This document shows positions 4,192 through 47,058 of a stretch of 64,000 nt of DNA, piece by piece. Positions within the stretch are counted from its first letter, which is position 1. Every line of letters begins with the position of its first letter. This DNA is from a virus. Under the pieces are notes generated by a model. It was not told where the DNA came from and searched no databases. It saw nothing but the letters and a program-made list of their open reading frames with translations. The stretch spans positions 1-64,000 of IMG/VR virus record IMGVR_UViG_3300010885_039212. One strand, given 5' to 3'. Both the position numbers and the translations under genes were made by a program.

Positions 4192-6000
4192 ATGCAAGAG
4201 ATTGTGCATGGGATAAGGGTAGATTACACACGAGATAATTTGTTTGACGAACTAGGAAAGATAAGATTACGAGAAAGTTATATGCAAGATGAAGAAGTAA
4301 GCCCACAAGAAAGGTTTGCTTTTGTTTCAAAATCATTTGGCTCCAACCCAGAACATGCGCAACGACTATATGAATATTCCTCTAATCATTGGCTCTCTTA
4401 TTCTACTCCCATTCTTTCTTTTGGTCGCAGTAAGCGTGGTTTGCCTATATCATGTTTCCTTAATTATATTGAAGATACAGCAGAAGGTTTAGTTGATAAC
4501 TTATCTGAAACAAATTGGCTCTCGATGTTGGGAGGCGGTGTCGGCATTGGGTTCGGTATTCGCAGTGCTGATGATAAGTCTACTGGTGTTATGCCTCATC
4601 TTAAAATGTACGATGCTTCTTCTTTGGCTTATCGTCAAGGTAGGACTCGCAGAGGAAGTTATGCTGCTTACCTTGACATTTCTCATCCTGATCTTATTAA
4701 TTTTCTTGAGATGAGAAAGCCAACTGGCGATCAAAACATGCGTTGTTTAAATCTACACCATGGCTTGAATATTCCAGATTCCTTTATGGAAATCATCGAA
4801 AGATGTATGCTTGATCCAGAAGCAGATGACTCTTGGGATTTAGTTGATCCGCATTCAAAAGAAGTTCGTGAAACAGTTTCAGCGAAAGAATTGTGGCAAC
4901 GTGTTCTTGAGATGAGAATGATGACTGGTGAACCATACCTACACTTTATCGATGAATCAAATCGTCAAATGCCAAAGTGGTTAAAAGATCAAGGATTGCG
5001 TATTAATCAATCTAATCTTTGTTCTGAAATTATTTTACCAACTAATGAAGAAAGAACTGCTGTATGTTGTTTATCATCTTTAAATTTAGAGTACTATGAT
5101 GAGTGGAAAGACCATCCTACTTTCCTTCGTGATATTGCTGAAATGCTTGACAATGTTCTTCAGTATTTTATTGATAATGCACCTTCCGCCATTGAACGTG
5201 CAAGGTATAGTGCCAGTCGTGAGCGCAGTATTGGTATCGGTGCTTTGGGTTGGCATGCTTATCTACAACGAAATAACTTGCCATGGGAATCTTCCCAAGC
5301 AGTCGGAAGAAACAAACAAATCTTTAGGACTATCAGAGAGAAATTAAATGAAGCAAATTTACAACTGGGTACAGAGCGTGGAGAAGCACCAGATGCTGTT
5401 GGCACTGGACTTCGCTTTAGTCATCTTATGGCTATTGCTCCCAATGCTTCTTCTTCCATTCTTATGGGCAATACTAGTCCTAGCATTGAACCTTATCGTG
5501 CCAATGCGTATAGACAAGATACTCTCTCGGGTTCTCACCTGAATAAGAATCGTTGGTTAGATAAAGTTATTCAAGATTATTTGTCTAGTGATAGTGGAAC
5601 AGTATCACAAAATGATTATAACGATATTTGGTCTTCAATTATTGCCAATGATGGATCTGTTCAACACTTGACCTGGATGGATGAATGGACAAAAGATGTA
5701 TTCAAGACTTCAATGGAGATTGACCAGCGTTGGGTAATTCAGCATGCTGCAGATCGTCAAGAATATATTGACCAAGCACAATCATTGAATGTTTTCTTTA
5801 GACCAGACAGTAATATCAAATACATTCATGCTGTTCACTTTATGGCATGGAAATTAAAATTGAAAACGATGTATTACTGTCGTAGCGATAAAATCGCAAA
5901 GGCAGATAAAGTATCAAAACGTATTGAACGTGAAGTTATTAAAGAAATCGATCTTATTGCCATGGCTGCAGGTAATGAGTGTTTAGCATGCGAGGGATAA
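4192..6000 (+). CDS. nrdA: ribonucleoside-diphosphate reductase alpha subunit, class Ia
   Basis: 602 residues. The barrel active-site region is clear: NQSNLCSEI (about 267-275) with the N-x-C-x-E catalytic triad, and the C-terminal redox pair CLACEG closes the protein. It starts directly in the barrel fold and lacks the N-terminal ATP-cone that gives activity control in cellular NrdA, so the phage enzyme should be insensitive to dATP shut-off (inference). It makes deoxyribonucleotides with NrdB encoded 54 bases downstream. Confidence 0.95.
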   Translation: MQEIVHGIRVDYTRDNLFDELGKIRLRESYMQDEEVSPQERFAFVSKSFGSNPEHAQRLYEYSSNHWLSYSTPILSFGRSKRGLPISCFLNYIEDTAEGLVDNLSETNWLSMLGGGVGIGFGIRSADDKSTGVMPHLKMYDASSLAYRQGRTRRGSYAAYLDISHPDLINFLEMRKPTGDQNMRCLNLHHGLNIPDSFMEIIERCMLDPEADDSWDLVDPHSKEVRETVSAKELWQRVLEMRMMTGEPYLHFIDESNRQMPKWLKDQGLRINQSNLCSEIILPTNEERTAVCCLSSLNLEYYDEWKDHPTFLRDIAEMLDNVLQYFIDNAPSAIERARYSASRERSIGIGALGWHAYLQRNNLPWESSQAVGRNKQIFRTIREKLNEANLQLGTERGEAPDAVGTGLRFSHLMAIAPNASSSILMGNTSPSIEPYRANAYRQDTLSGSHLNKNRWLDKVIQDYLSSDSGTVSQNDYNDIWSSIIANDGSVQHLTWMDEWTKDVFKTSMEIDQRWVIQHAADRQEYIDQAQSLNVFFRPDSNIKYIHAVHFMAWKLKLKTMYYCRSDKIAKADKVSKRIEREVIKEIDLIAMAAGNECLACEG

Positions 6001-26213: not shown

Positions 26214-26288
26214 GCACGTGTGACTGAATGGTAAGGTAGCGGTTTGCAAGTCCGATGTTCGTAGGTTCGATTCCTACCACGTGTTCCA
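26214..26288 (+). tRNA. tRNA-Cys (GCA)
   Basis: Acceptor GCACGTG/CACGTGT with G-U first pair, anticodon loop TTGCAAG with a T-T mismatch beside it, discriminator T, CCA encoded. Confidence 0.8.
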
Positions 26289-26500: not shown

Positions 26501-26529
26501 TTTACAAATAATAAAAAGTGTAGTATAAT
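26501..26529 (+). promoter_or_regulatory. sigma70-type promoter
   Basis: TTTACA (26501-26506), 17-base spacer, TATAAT (26524-26529). Followed only by a 14-codon frame at 26536 before the next promoter. Confidence 0.65.
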
Positions 26530-26658: not shown

Positions 26659-26727
26659 ATGGAATGTTTGAAATGTAAAAAATGGCACTTTAAAATGAAT
26701 CCTTGTAATCCTGGAAAACAAAGGTAA
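26659..26727 (+). CDS. 22-residue Cys-rich mini-protein
   Basis: Codes MECLKCKKWHFKMNPCNPGK plus two residues. It has its own promoter and AAAAAAGG ribosome site with the same 24-base leader spacing as larger early genes. The three Cys could bind a metal. It may equally be a decayed remnant of a longer early gene. Confidence 0.4.
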   Translation: MECLKCKKWHFKMNPCNPGKQR

Positions 26728-26735
26728 GGATAGTT

Positions 26736-26810
26736 GCTCGGCTCGTCTATCGGTTAGGACACTGCCCTTTCACGGCAGGAAGACCAGTTCGATTCTGGTG
26801 CCGAGTACCA
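26736..26810 (+). tRNA. tRNA-Glu (TTC)
   Basis: Acceptor GCTCGGC/GCCGAGT (G-U first pair), anticodon loop CTTTCAC between CTGCC and GGCAG, CCA encoded. Confidence 0.9.
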
Positions 26811-26820
26811 AATTTAATTG

Positions 26821-27180
26821 CATTGGGTTACCAATACCAGTAGGTGATCTAGTTTGTCTACAACTGACGGAGTTGTAACTGCTAGATTACACGAAACCTC
26901 GAGATAATATCAGAAGGACGCTGGAGCAAGTTGGTCTGTAATGTGGTTGACAAACAAATCCGTGGACGACACGGTAGGGCAGGTTCAAAACTGTTATTTT
27001 TGTCAAACATCCCAGTGTGATTAAATTTGGTATTAGTTTAGTGCTATCAAGGTATCGTGATCTGATCAATCACTATTCGGGTCCAACTGGCGAGGGACGG
27101 ATCCTAATATAACTGCTTAGTCGCTATGGGATGTTAGCTACAGACCCCTAAATCGAGCAGATAGCACTAAACTAATACCA
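26821..27180 (+). ncRNA. candidate large structured RNA, about 360 nt
   Basis: No credible gene on either strand, but many exact helices. Domain 1 is closed by CATTGGG (26821-26827) with CCCAGTG (27011-27017) and contains GTGATCTAG/CTAGATTAC (26844-26852/26882-26890) with inner ACAACT/AGTTGT, TTGACAAA/TTTGTCAA (26947-26954/26999-27006) with inner CCGTG/CACGG. Domain 2 is closed by a perfect 21-bp repeat (27028-27048/27160-27180) with inner GTGAT/ATCAC. It sits between tRNA-Glu and tRNA-Tyr. GOLLD- or ROOL-like ornate phage RNA is possible; not recognised with certainty. Confidence 0.55.
27028..27180 (+). repeat. perfect 21-bp inverted repeat enclosing 111 nt
   Basis: TGGTATTAGTTTAGTGCTAT begins the left arm (27028-27048); the right arm (27160-27180) is its exact complement. 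The longest perfect stem noticed in the window, ending one base before the tRNA-Tyr. Confidence 0.85.
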
Positions 27181-27181
27181 T

Positions 27182-27267
27182 GGAGAATGAGAAGCATTGG
27201 TGACTTCAGCAGACTGTAAATCTGTCGCCTTATGGCATATGGGGTTCGAATCCCTGATTCTCCACCA
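27182..27267 (+). tRNA. tRNA-Tyr (GTA)
   Basis: Class II with long variable arm. Acceptor GGAGAAT/ATTCTCC, anticodon loop CTGTAAA between GCAGA and TCTGT, CCA encoded. Starts directly after the 21-bp inverted repeat. Confidence 0.9.
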
Positions 27268-27274
27268 AGTATTT

Positions 27275-27349
27275 GGTCTCGAAGTGTTCATGGACGCACA
27301 CAACACTGTCACTGTTGAAGAAGGGGATCGTTACCCCTCGAGACCGCCA
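27275..27349 (+). tRNA. tRNA-Asp (GTC), divergent T-loop
   Basis: Acceptor GGTCTCG/CGAGACC, D-stem GTGT/GCAC, anticodon loop CTGTCAC between CAACA and TGTTG, CCA encoded. The T-loop reads ATCGTTA instead of TTC-purine type, so position 54 is unusual. Confidence 0.8.
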
Positions 27350-27356
27350 TGTTTAT

Positions 27357-27484
27357 GTCCTGGTAATCCACGCCAAGTTCGCAACTTGGGTTCTACGATG
27401 AGTTCGCAACTCATGGCAGTAGAGAGGTAAAAACCCTGTTTATAGGGTCTCCAGTGAGTAGGTGAAACTCCTATAAGGACGCCA
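27357..27484 (+). ncRNA. tRNA-like element with two inserted hairpins
   Basis: GTCCT (27357-27361) pairs AGGAC (27476-27480), followed by GCCA; a T-arm-like hairpin GTAGG/CCTAT with loop TGAAACT abuts it, and an ACCCT/AGGGT hairpin stands where an anticodon arm would be, with only a 6-base loop. Between lie two similar hairpins, CCAAGTTCGCAACTTGG and ATGAGTTCGCAACTCAT. It looks like a tRNA shape with about 70 extra bases: a decayed tRNA, an interrupted one, or a distinct RNA. Confidence 0.45.
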
Positions 27485-27665
27485 TTTTTGTTGGAATGAA
27501 TTCAAAGTCTTGTGACTTTTTTAGTAGTTCGTCAGGAACGAATTTGACAGATACATATTTATCAGGAATGAAATGTTTTGATGTAGTATAAGTCGATTGT
27601 GTGTATTTAATGTTGTCTATTTTATACAACATTAAATATGAATCTTCAGGTGGGATATGTGACAT
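27471..27665 (-). CDS. possible minus-strand small protein
   Basis: 64 residues on the minus strand (MSHIPPEDSYLMLYKIDNIKYTQ…), with plausible phage codon use and composition, no signal or membrane segment. No ribosome site is visible before the ATG and no family is recognised. An internal 9-bp hairpin (TAATGTTGT/ACAACATTA) lies within. The end overlaps the tRNA-like element. Confidence 0.45.
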   Translation of the reverse strand: MSHIPPEDSYLMLYKIDNIKYTQSTYTTSKHFIPDKYVSVKFVPDELLKKSQDFEFIPTKMASL

Positions 27666-27680
27666 AAGTATATTTATTAT

Positions 27681-27755
27681 TCCAGAGTAGCACAGCGGTA
27701 GTGCAGTTGACTGTTAATCAATTGGTCGTAGGTTCGATCCCTGCCTCTGGAGCCA
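27681..27755 (+). tRNA. tRNA-Asn (GTT)
   Basis: Acceptor TCCAGAG/CTCTGGA, anticodon loop CTGTTAA between GTTGA and TCAAT, CCA encoded. Confidence 0.92.
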
Positions 27756-29845: not shown

Positions 29846-30328
29846 ATGCGTCCTATCGACATCAATGAAGTAAAAACATTCATTGAAGCACAAAGTCCAG
29901 AAACAAAAATTTACATTGGGGCTGATTCCGAAAGATTTAATATAGGTAATGATTGGTACGCAGATTATACTTTGGCAATCGTTGTTCACATTAATGGTAA
30001 CAGTGGTTGTAAAATTTTTGGTGAAGTTCAGAGAGAACGTGATTATGATAGAAAGCAGAACAGACCACGTATGCGGTTAATGACTGAAGTCTACAAGATT
30101 GCAGATCTATATTTGAAACTACAAGATGTTCTTGAAGATCGAGATGTAGAAGTTCACCTAGATATTAATCCAAACGAGATGCATGGATCATCTTGTGTGA
30201 TTAATGAAGCAACAGGATATATAAGAGGTATGTGTAATGTGGTGCCATTGGTTAAACCAAATGCATTTGCGGCATCATACTGTGCAGATCGAATGAAAGA
30301 TATTTTGTCAAATAGAATGGTAGCATAA
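29846..30328 (+). CDS. YkuK-like RNase H-fold protein (DUF458)
   Basis: 160 residues. The opening strand IYIGADSERF with acidic residue and HLDINPNEMHGSSCVINEATGY match the YkuK/DUF458 group of predicted RNase H-like nucleases. Activity is unproven for the family. GGAG lies before the start; the gene ends one base before tRNA-Gly(TCC). Confidence 0.7.
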   Translation: MRPIDINEVKTFIEAQSPETKIYIGADSERFNIGNDWYADYTLAIVVHINGNSGCKIFGEVQRERDYDRKQNRPRMRLMTEVYKIADLYLKLQDVLEDRDVEVHLDINPNEMHGSSCVINEATGYIRGMCNVVPLVKPNAFAASYCADRMKDILSNRMVA

Positions 30329-46074: not shown

Positions 46075-46728
46075 ATGAAGACATTTATACACCATGAATT
46101 CGATAAACTCCAACGTGAAACCTCTCCCGATGGTAAAAGAGTTTACAAAACTCCGTCGGGTCGAGCCTACCCTAGCGTCACAACAGTTACAGGACTCCAC
46201 TCAGCAAAATCAATCGCACAGTGGAGAGCAAGAGTCGGAGAAGCAGAAGCCAACAGAATATCAGGTCGCGCAAGTGCACGTGGCACAAGAATCCACAGTC
46301 TCTGCGAATCATTCCTCCGCAATGAAAGATGTGAGCCTGATATCTTCGATCGAGAATTATTTCAGGGAATTTCACCCCACCTTGAAGAAATAGATAATAT
46401 ACATGCGCTTGAAGATCCTCTGTACTCAGATCATCTTGAAGTTGCGGGAACTGTTGATTGTATTGCTGAGTTTAGAGGTAAGTTATCTGTAATAGATTTT
46501 AAAACTTCAAGTAAAGTAAAAACTCGTGATGATATTCACAATTACTTTATGCAAACATCAGCATATGCAGTTGCCTTTGAAGAACGAACTGGGATTCCTG
46601 TTGGTAGACTTGTAGTTATTATGGGAGTTGATAATGAGGATCCATTGATATTTGTCGAGAAGAGAGATACTTGGATTGATGGTTTCTGCAAATTGAGAGA
46701 AGAATATAAAAATAAATTTGCTTTATAA
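46075..46728 (+). CDS. PD-(D/E)XK exonuclease
   Basis: 217 residues from ATG 46075. RecB/Cas4-like core: GTRIHSLCESFL, LEVAGTVDCIAEF and SVIDFKTSSKVK (D…D-x-K), then NYFMQTSAYAVAFEE. Phage nucleases of this kind act in recombination or DNA degradation. The first 310 bases have C-rich third positions and then the composition drops sharply to AT-rich; the protein reads smoothly through. Its end carries the tmRNA promoter. Confidence 0.8.
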   Translation: MKTFIHHEFDKLQRETSPDGKRVYKTPSGRAYPSVTTVTGLHSAKSIAQWRARVGEAEANRISGRASARGTRIHSLCESFLRNERCEPDIFDRELFQGISPHLEEIDNIHALEDPLYSDHLEVAGTVDCIAEFRGKLSVIDFKTSSKVKTRDDIHNYFMQTSAYAVAFEERTGIPVGRLVVIMGVDNEDPLIFVEKRDTWIDGFCKLREEYKNKFAL

Positions 46729-46746
46729 CTAAATATAAGGTATAAT
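46718..46746 (+). promoter_or_regulatory. sigma70-type promoter for tmRNA
   Basis: TTGCTT (46718-46723), 17-base spacer, TATAAT (46741-46746). Overlaps the end of the exonuclease gene; expected start near 46752. Confidence 0.75.
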
Positions 46747-46952
46747 GAAGGTATTGCTGTATGAAGTGATGTAAAACGTGTTCTGGACGGGAGTTCGATT
46801 CTCCCCACCTCCACCAAAACGGCACTACACCCCTCTTAACAATGGGCAACCTTGTAGTGCGTTTTTGATGGGGGTGACTAGGTTTCGACAGGGCAATTAG
46901 TAACTGCGTGGACAGCACATCAGAGTAGATGTTAAAACTAAACAAAGTAAAC

Positions 46953-46985
46953 GCAAACGACTCACAGTTCGCATTGGCAGCCTAA
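46953..46985 (+). other. tmRNA tag reading frame (ANDSQFALAA)
   Basis: Resume codon GCA at 46953-46955; ten residues ANDSQFALAA, then TAA. The ALAA end is the degron read by ClpXP in bacteria. Confidence 0.9.
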
Positions 46986-47002
46986 ACGCTGACTAGGGTT
47001 TC

Positions 47003-47040
47003 GGTAGGTTTCCTCGTAACAGAATAACCTACCATTTTTT
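47003..47040 (+). terminator. terminator of the tmRNA transcript
   Basis: GGTAGGTT (47003-47010) and AACCTACC (47026-47033) then TTTTTT. Confidence 0.85.
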
Positions 47041-47058
47041 AAATAAAGGAATATAATC

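Follow-up and report, generated by a model that had tools for sequence, protein, structure and literature searches.

What is a densely structured stretch of apparently non-coding sequence doing in the middle of a phage tRNA array, is it one element or several, and does it act as RNA or as DNA? The usual explanation of phage tRNA islands goes no further than support of translation. The locus that raises these questions is the 371-nt gap separating tRNA-Glu from tRNA-Tyr in a 64-kb window, the whole stretch of DNA analysed here, which comes from a 95,733-bp IMG/VR record of an uncultured phage. A sequence-only reading had described most of this gap as a block of dense RNA structure at 26821-27180 with no gene on either strand, closed as one RNA by a 7-bp stem and belonging either to the large ornate phage RNAs of the GOLLD and ROOL class or to a new class. 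The structured non-coding block is real, with its start moved to 26811, the base after the CCA of tRNA-Glu, and the gap contains no credible ORF, the longest being a 60-aa TTG frame on the opposite strand. The single RNA, in turn, gives way to two modules, which we call D1 and A.

The tRNA island and its surroundings

The window carries 24 or 25 tRNA genes within 24.5-29.1 kb (one of them recognised by Rfam only), another at 30.3 kb, and a tmRNA. The elements that frame the block are as follows.

26501..26529, + strand: sigma-70-like promoter sequence TTTACA-17-TATAAT, recognised by consensus alone, ahead of tRNA-Glu and the block
26736..26810, + strand: tRNA-Glu(ttc), found by ARAGORN; its 3' CCA (26808-26810) starts the D1 closing stem and pairs with TGG 27028-27030
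26806-26827/27011-27032: inverted repeat I2, spanning the end of tRNA-Glu and the D1 closing stem
27182..27267, + strand: tRNA-Tyr(gta), found by ARAGORN; starts one base past module A

The promoter-like site matches 11 of 12 consensus positions, and such sites are not more numerous in the region than in shuffled sequence. A search for an intrinsic terminator (GC stem and U-run) on the + strand at the 3' end of D1 or A returned no terminator-like site. Another spacer, at 27350-27486, has many small hairpins and lies outside the present claim; its fold z-score is -1.0, and homologues were absent from the relatives collected first.

Two further RNA genes of the window deserve mention. A tRNA following tRNA-Met at 26214-26285 is tRNA-Cys-like (anticodon region gca) and scores 52 bits with Rfam, having been missed by ARAGORN. 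The tmRNA at 46704-47046 is of the permuted betaproteobacterial type (Rfam beta_tmRNA 124 bits, tmRNA_permuted 120 bits) with the tag ANDSQFALAA, and its type hints at a betaproteobacterial host for the phage.

Two self-contained modules in one block

In the minimum free energy structure, the block at 26811-27180 falls into two self-contained domains, each with a long closing stem (17 bp in D1, 21 bp in A) in place of the 7-bp stem assumed before. The perfect 21-bp inverted repeat that had been noted one base before tRNA-Tyr is confirmed and forms the closing stem of A. The whole block folds at -125.1 kcal/mol, compared with a shuffled mean of -90.7 (sd 5.1), which corresponds to a z-score of -6.8, with none of 100 shuffles as low. 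Folded separately, D1 and A reach -4.1 and -5.5, and the median over 180-nt windows of the 64 kb is -0.4. In one segment, TGGTA at 27028-27032, the two closing stems are in competition for the outermost pairs: pairing with the upstream ACCA closes D1, and pairing with the TACCA before tRNA-Tyr closes A.

26811..27027, + strand: RNA module D1, 217 nt, a closing stem with two branched domains (56 distinct homologues, covariation, covariance model R2 209.7 bits)
26811..26827, + strand: 5' arm of the 17-bp D1 closing stem P1 (fold and alignment)
27011..27027, + strand: 3' arm of the D1 closing stem P1 (fold and alignment)
26844..26890, + strand: D1 long hairpin with stem GTGATCTAG/CTAGATTAC and inner stem ACAAC/GTTGT
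26960..26974, + strand: D1 hairpin CCGTG-GACGA-CACGG with an invariant GACG loop
27028..27180, + strand: RNA module A, 153 nt, a 21-bp closing stem with three hairpins and a pseudoknot (77 distinct homologues, covariation, covariance model R1 143 bits)
27028..27048, + strand: 5' arm of the A closing stem P1, a perfect 21-bp inverted repeat with 27160-27180
27160..27180, + strand: 3' arm of the A closing stem P1, ending one base short of tRNA-Tyr
27057..27073, + strand: A hairpin P3
27079..27104, + strand: A hairpin P4, whose loop contains the pseudoknot strand GCGA (27090-27093)
27121..27124, + strand: pseudoknot partner TCGC, pairing with the GCGA of the P4 loop
27126..27150, + strand: A hairpin P5, of which only the inner pairs form in the window copy

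Occurrence in other viruses

Relatives were first collected as 80 viral loci found through the protein encoded at 29846-30328, 2.7 kb downstream. In many of them the spacer between tRNA-Glu and tRNA-Tyr contains homologues of D1, of A or of both; in five (L005, L006, L008, L014 and L018) it measures only 6-7 nt and the block is absent, and other loci have a different stem-closed sequence in its place. An IMG/VR-wide scan with two degenerate DNA patterns, in which an intact closing stem was required, brought the collection to 56 distinct copies of D1 and 77 of A. The modules are separable: each also occurs without the other, and in one locus (L265) they lie more than 6 kb apart. This distance, together with the conservation of their cores whatever tRNA precedes, indicates that D1 and A are each a unit of their own.

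Outside these viruses the modules were not encountered. The A pattern gave 21 hits over 84,980 GTDB genomes, none with the closing stem, and these hits are therefore attributed to chance and serve as a negative control. A blastn comparison of the block and of the relatives' A, D1 and C modules with the named phages of INPHARED recovered flanking tRNAs only, or nothing at E<=1, and models R1 and R2 had no match in cultured relatives found through a neighbouring protein (DLP6, Xanthomonas X1, Synechococcus BUCT-ZZ01, Phaeobacter MD18 and Rhizobium I1_18). As a side observation, the tRNA arrays of five loci (L005, L006, L017, L060 and L083) include tRNAs with a CUA anticodon, which ARAGORN assigns to Pyl and which are possibly amber suppressors.

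Covariation and the sense of the RNA

Compensatory changes in related phages, proposed earlier as a check, are abundant in both modules. Covariation was assessed with a tree-aware G-test written for this analysis and modelled on R-scape, and with slid controls. In the alignment of A (A1, 56 sequences), 96.2% of helix cells are standard pairs, with 565 double-sided changes; sliding the 3' partners by 1-3 columns leaves 33-43% paired and 47-106 double changes. All 17 pairs that reach E<0.05 are canonical, and they are distributed over the closing stem, P3, P4, P5 and, with one pair, the pseudoknot. Double-sided change affects 15 of 21 pairs of the closing stem, 5 of 7 in P3 (4 pairs at E<0.05) and 4 of 5 in P5. 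The pseudoknot appears among relatives as GCGA/TCGC, GCCG/CGGC and GCTG/CAGC; its four pairs are 100% paired, two of them are double-changed in 18 sequences, and pair 67-98 reaches E ~0.02.

The alignment of D1 (A2, 45 sequences) has 91.6% of helix cells paired and 334 double-sided changes, against 36-66 in slid controls. Eight canonical and five further non-canonical pairs are significant at E<0.05; several of the non-canonical ones reflect swaps of whole hairpin variants, alternative versions of entire hairpins being found within D1, and the covariation scores are inflated in that part. In the long hairpin, double-sided change affects 7 of the 9 outer pairs and 4 of the 5 inner ones, and two inner pairs reach E<0.05. 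The hairpin at 26960-26974 is 99% paired, with double-sided change in 4 of 5 pairs, three of which fall below E 0.05.

Cells with G-U outnumber those with A-C by 134:29 and 118:41 in the two modules, and this excess over A-C mismatches identifies the tRNA-sense strand as the RNA. All neighbouring tRNAs that were found are on the same strand as the module. Covariance models were built for A (R1) and D1 (R2). The window scores 143 bits with R1 and 210 bits with R2, values that show consistency only, the window copies belonging to the training sets; complete copies of A score at least 98.7 bits with R1 and their reverse strands at most 36 bits. Comparative sequence evidence thus establishes D1 and A as two independent structured non-coding RNAs, arranged head to tail in a phage tRNA operon, and the G-U asymmetry and the orientation of the modules establish that both are read in the tRNA-sense direction.

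Two loop sequences stand apart from this argument. GGACG hairpin loops are shared by three otherwise unrelated modules, D1 (26960-26974 in the window) and most A and C modules of relatives, the window's own A having a different loop, and a common protein or RNA contact is possible. The P3 loop of the window's A (27062-27068) reads CTGATCA and holds the self-complementary TGATCA, which could permit loop-loop dimerisation; the loop differs in most relatives.

Docking on tRNA ends and exchange of cores

The placement of the modules relative to tRNAs is precise. Of 56 D1 copies, 52 have a tRNA CCA immediately before their first base; this tRNA is mostly that for Glu and otherwise for Ile, Gln or Ser, and in most cases its CCA can lengthen the closing stem by pairing with TGG at the module's 3' end. 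The closing stem of A starts within the CCA of a tRNA (Glu, Asp, Gly, Leu or Trp) in 41 of 77 copies, and many of the remaining copies come straight after D1, as in the window. The following tRNA is usually 1-18 nt away or lies past another module. Nearly all of the 77 copies of A are found in tRNA operons; the sole exception (L223:4789-4943) has no detected tRNA within 4.8 kb upstream or 7.3 kb downstream, and is a candidate for a function that does not depend on tRNAs.

The slot after D1 is occupied by A in 25 loci, by B in 14 and by C in four. The cores of A, B and C are unrelated in sequence, and in many loci the outer arms TGGTATTAGTT...AACTAATATCA are common to them. The cores are thus exchanged like cassettes between stem arms that stay constant, and surface hairpins turn over fast. 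Examples of the other modules are listed here.

L011:2369-2498, L068:458-585, L060:4704-4903, L070:4273-4472 and L037 ~5430-5630: modules B, C and E, likewise structured and stem-closed, found in these slots

An Rfam search of C and E gave chance matches only. Taken over all loci, 1,115 inter-tRNA gaps hold 576 stem-closed segments, a count that includes some protein-coding stretches. One arm motif, typically ACCATATAAAAACACATT...AGTGTGTTTCTATATGGT, is present in 102 of the 576, and 81 of these begin at a tRNA CCA; the motif also occurs in D1 variants, for example in L090 and L094. The polarity control for this motif gave 86 against 102, the motif being nearly palindromic, so that its occurrence was used and its orientation was not. 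The 102 segments have differing cores of 32-211 nt and form 56 BLAST clusters (58 by cores alone), a clustering that overestimates the number of families. About a hundred of them resemble L083:464-542, L080:4808-4886 and L021:1329-1415, small shared-stem modules at a tRNA CCA with very diverse cores, and on average these small cores show only slightly more structure than shuffled sequence (mean z -0.55). A hammerhead-like string, CTGATGAG...CGAAA, in a core of L021 was dropped as a candidate, having no Rfam ribozyme match. A perfect T-arm is present in 7 of 87 constant-stem modules, and some of these may derive from tRNAs. The wider shared-arm set is a lead, whereas D1 and A are established.

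Possible roles of the modules

What could be the fate of these modules after transcription? The reading we favour, with a probability of roughly 0.57, is that D1 and A are independent structured RNAs with exchangeable cores that are made with the tRNAs, cut out of their transcript and stable, and that act in trans. One precursor would then contain tRNA-Glu, -Tyr and -Asp, perhaps starting from the promoter-like site at 26501-26529, and within it each module would be closed by its long stem, anchored on the CCA of the upstream tRNA or on the adjoining module. Since the closing stem stops at the CCA and the 5' end of the next tRNA comes directly after, we infer that tRNA-processing enzymes would release tRNAs and modules alike, with RNase P acting at the 5' end of the next tRNA and a double-strand-specific or 3'-processing nuclease cutting the closing stem. 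The conservation of cores, and not of stems alone, across many tRNA contexts suggests that the released RNAs would most likely be stable, nuclease-resistant and trans-acting during infection. As a matter of speculation, core exchange might fit an arms race with binding partners, such as host RNA-handling or defence factors.

The main rival to the trans-acting reading is a cis role in the tRNA transcript, which we consider doubtful. The stems would form a duplex with the upstream CCA and determine in what order or at which site 3' processing takes place, or else the modules would act on RNA polymerase and provide antitermination through the long untranslated array in the manner of the HK022 put RNA, a phage-encoded antiterminator of ~65 nt with two stem-loops that acts in the nascent transcript; in either case the cores would matter only in the precursor. 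Such a role would agree with the exact siting at tRNA ends, the inclusion of the tRNA CCA in the closing stem, the near-exclusive occurrence in the sense strand of tRNA operons (the A copy of L223 excepted) and the many stem-closed inter-tRNA spacers of relatives. A spacer or processing stem, however, needs no elaborate conserved core with a pseudoknot, and unrelated cores A, B and C interchange in one slot. Many relatives, moreover, have spacers of 5-7 nt at the same junction, and hence no element is needed there.

Long terminal inverted repeats, presence or absence among close relatives and common arms around unrelated cores would also be expected of a DNA-level element, a miniature inverted-repeat element or an attC-like recombination cassette, whose repeats serve mobility and not RNA. 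We regard this as improbable. A DNA element would insert both ways, whereas the neighbouring tRNAs are all on the same strand; the internal helices and the pseudoknot show covariation, one strand prefers G-U to A-C, and inspection by eye revealed no attC consensus.

The earlier assignment to the GOLLD or ROOL class, or more generally to a divergent form or a free-standing domain of a known large phage RNA, is very improbable. The shared habitat near phage tRNA islands (PMC12286853) and the presence of GOLLD after D1 in one locus speak for it, but the Rfam search of the window and of the block gave chance matches only, with GOLLD, ROOL and introns absent from 26700-27700 even at E<=10, and two independent modules of 217 and 153 nt differ from the >800 nt of many GOLLDs. 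In the locus concerned (L028), a GOLLD match (203 bits, 1317-1780) that contains a predicted tRNA-Asn lies ~420 nt downstream of a separate D1 (680-897), in the Glu-to-Asn spacer region; D1 and this interval precede the match; D1 is thus not GOLLD, nor does it form the 5' half of one. GOLLD was not found in the D1-bearing loci L011, L019, L025 and L083. The sole sub-threshold Rfam match, to the Twister-P3 ribozyme, was rejected (17.2 bits against a gathering threshold of 39.9, wrong strand, E 2.5), as was a group I or II intron, the flanking tRNAs being intact and separate and no intron model matching.

Decayed tRNA genes or tRNA-derived pseudogenes, including the degenerate tRNA array that had been named as a possible exact match, are just as improbable despite the T-arm kept by 7 of 87 constant-stem modules, for the Rfam tRNA model matches the flanking tRNAs only, no T-arm occurs in 76 segments of A or 64 of D1, and covariation would not survive decay.

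Strong covariation and the lack of a match to any Rfam family support the other earlier proposal, that the block represents a new class of structured RNA in the vicinity of phage tRNAs. Structured RNAs in phage tRNA islands are already known; the two families, the CCA docking and the core exchange appear to be new. Rfam 15 and the searched literature hold no description of D1, A, CCA docking or core exchange in constant stems, within a partial coverage of journals that makes an earlier description possible. The recurrence of D1 and A as interchangeable cassettes at tRNA ends suggests a hidden class of phage RNAs made together with tRNAs. We put forward, tentatively, that the tRNA islands of this clade harbour an undescribed RNA cassette system, in which constant CCA-docked stems carry rapidly changing unrelated cores (D1, A, B, C, E and ~56 clusters) that tRNA processing might release as counter-defence or host-takeover RNAs.

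The immediate gain is at least two new RNA families, supported by evidence on par with that for accepted Rfam families and placed with base precision in a tRNA island. If stable and trans-acting, they would point to a hidden stock of RNA effectors in phages; should they act in cis, to a new way of handling long tRNA precursors. The role of the structured RNAs that accompany phage tRNAs (T4 RNA C and D, GOLLD, ROOL), a long-open question, becomes testable with compact representatives of 150-220 nt, their alignments and models.

Comparison with known RNAs

The HK022 put RNA, the model for a cis role, differs from D1 and A in having neither a pseudoknot cassette nor a link to a tRNA CCA. Closer in setting are RNA C and RNA D of T4 (species 1 and 2 stable RNAs, NC_000866), which measure 139 and 119 nt, lie in a phage tRNA cluster on the tRNA strand and whose function, as for D1 and A, is not known; a transcript shared with the tRNAs is what we would predict for D1 and A. 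A T-arm of tRNA type persists in RNA C, and the end of RNA D lies near CCA, features that D1 and A do not have; R1 and R2 found nothing in the T4 RNA C/D locus (L291). GOLLD and ROOL both adjoin phage tRNA islands (PMC12286853). ROOL resembles D1 and A as a phage or prophage RNA with pseudoknots and no known function (PMC12286853), but it measures ~580-660 nt and its model has no match here. GOLLD (RF02032) is likewise phage-borne, located in or beside tRNA islands and elaborately conserved in structure, its function also not known; it often exceeds 800 nt, forms a 14-mer cage (PMC12286853) and is unrelated by covariance model to the 217-nt D1 and the 153-nt A. What sets D1 and A apart from GOLLD is the long closing stem at the tRNA CCA and their exchange as cassettes.
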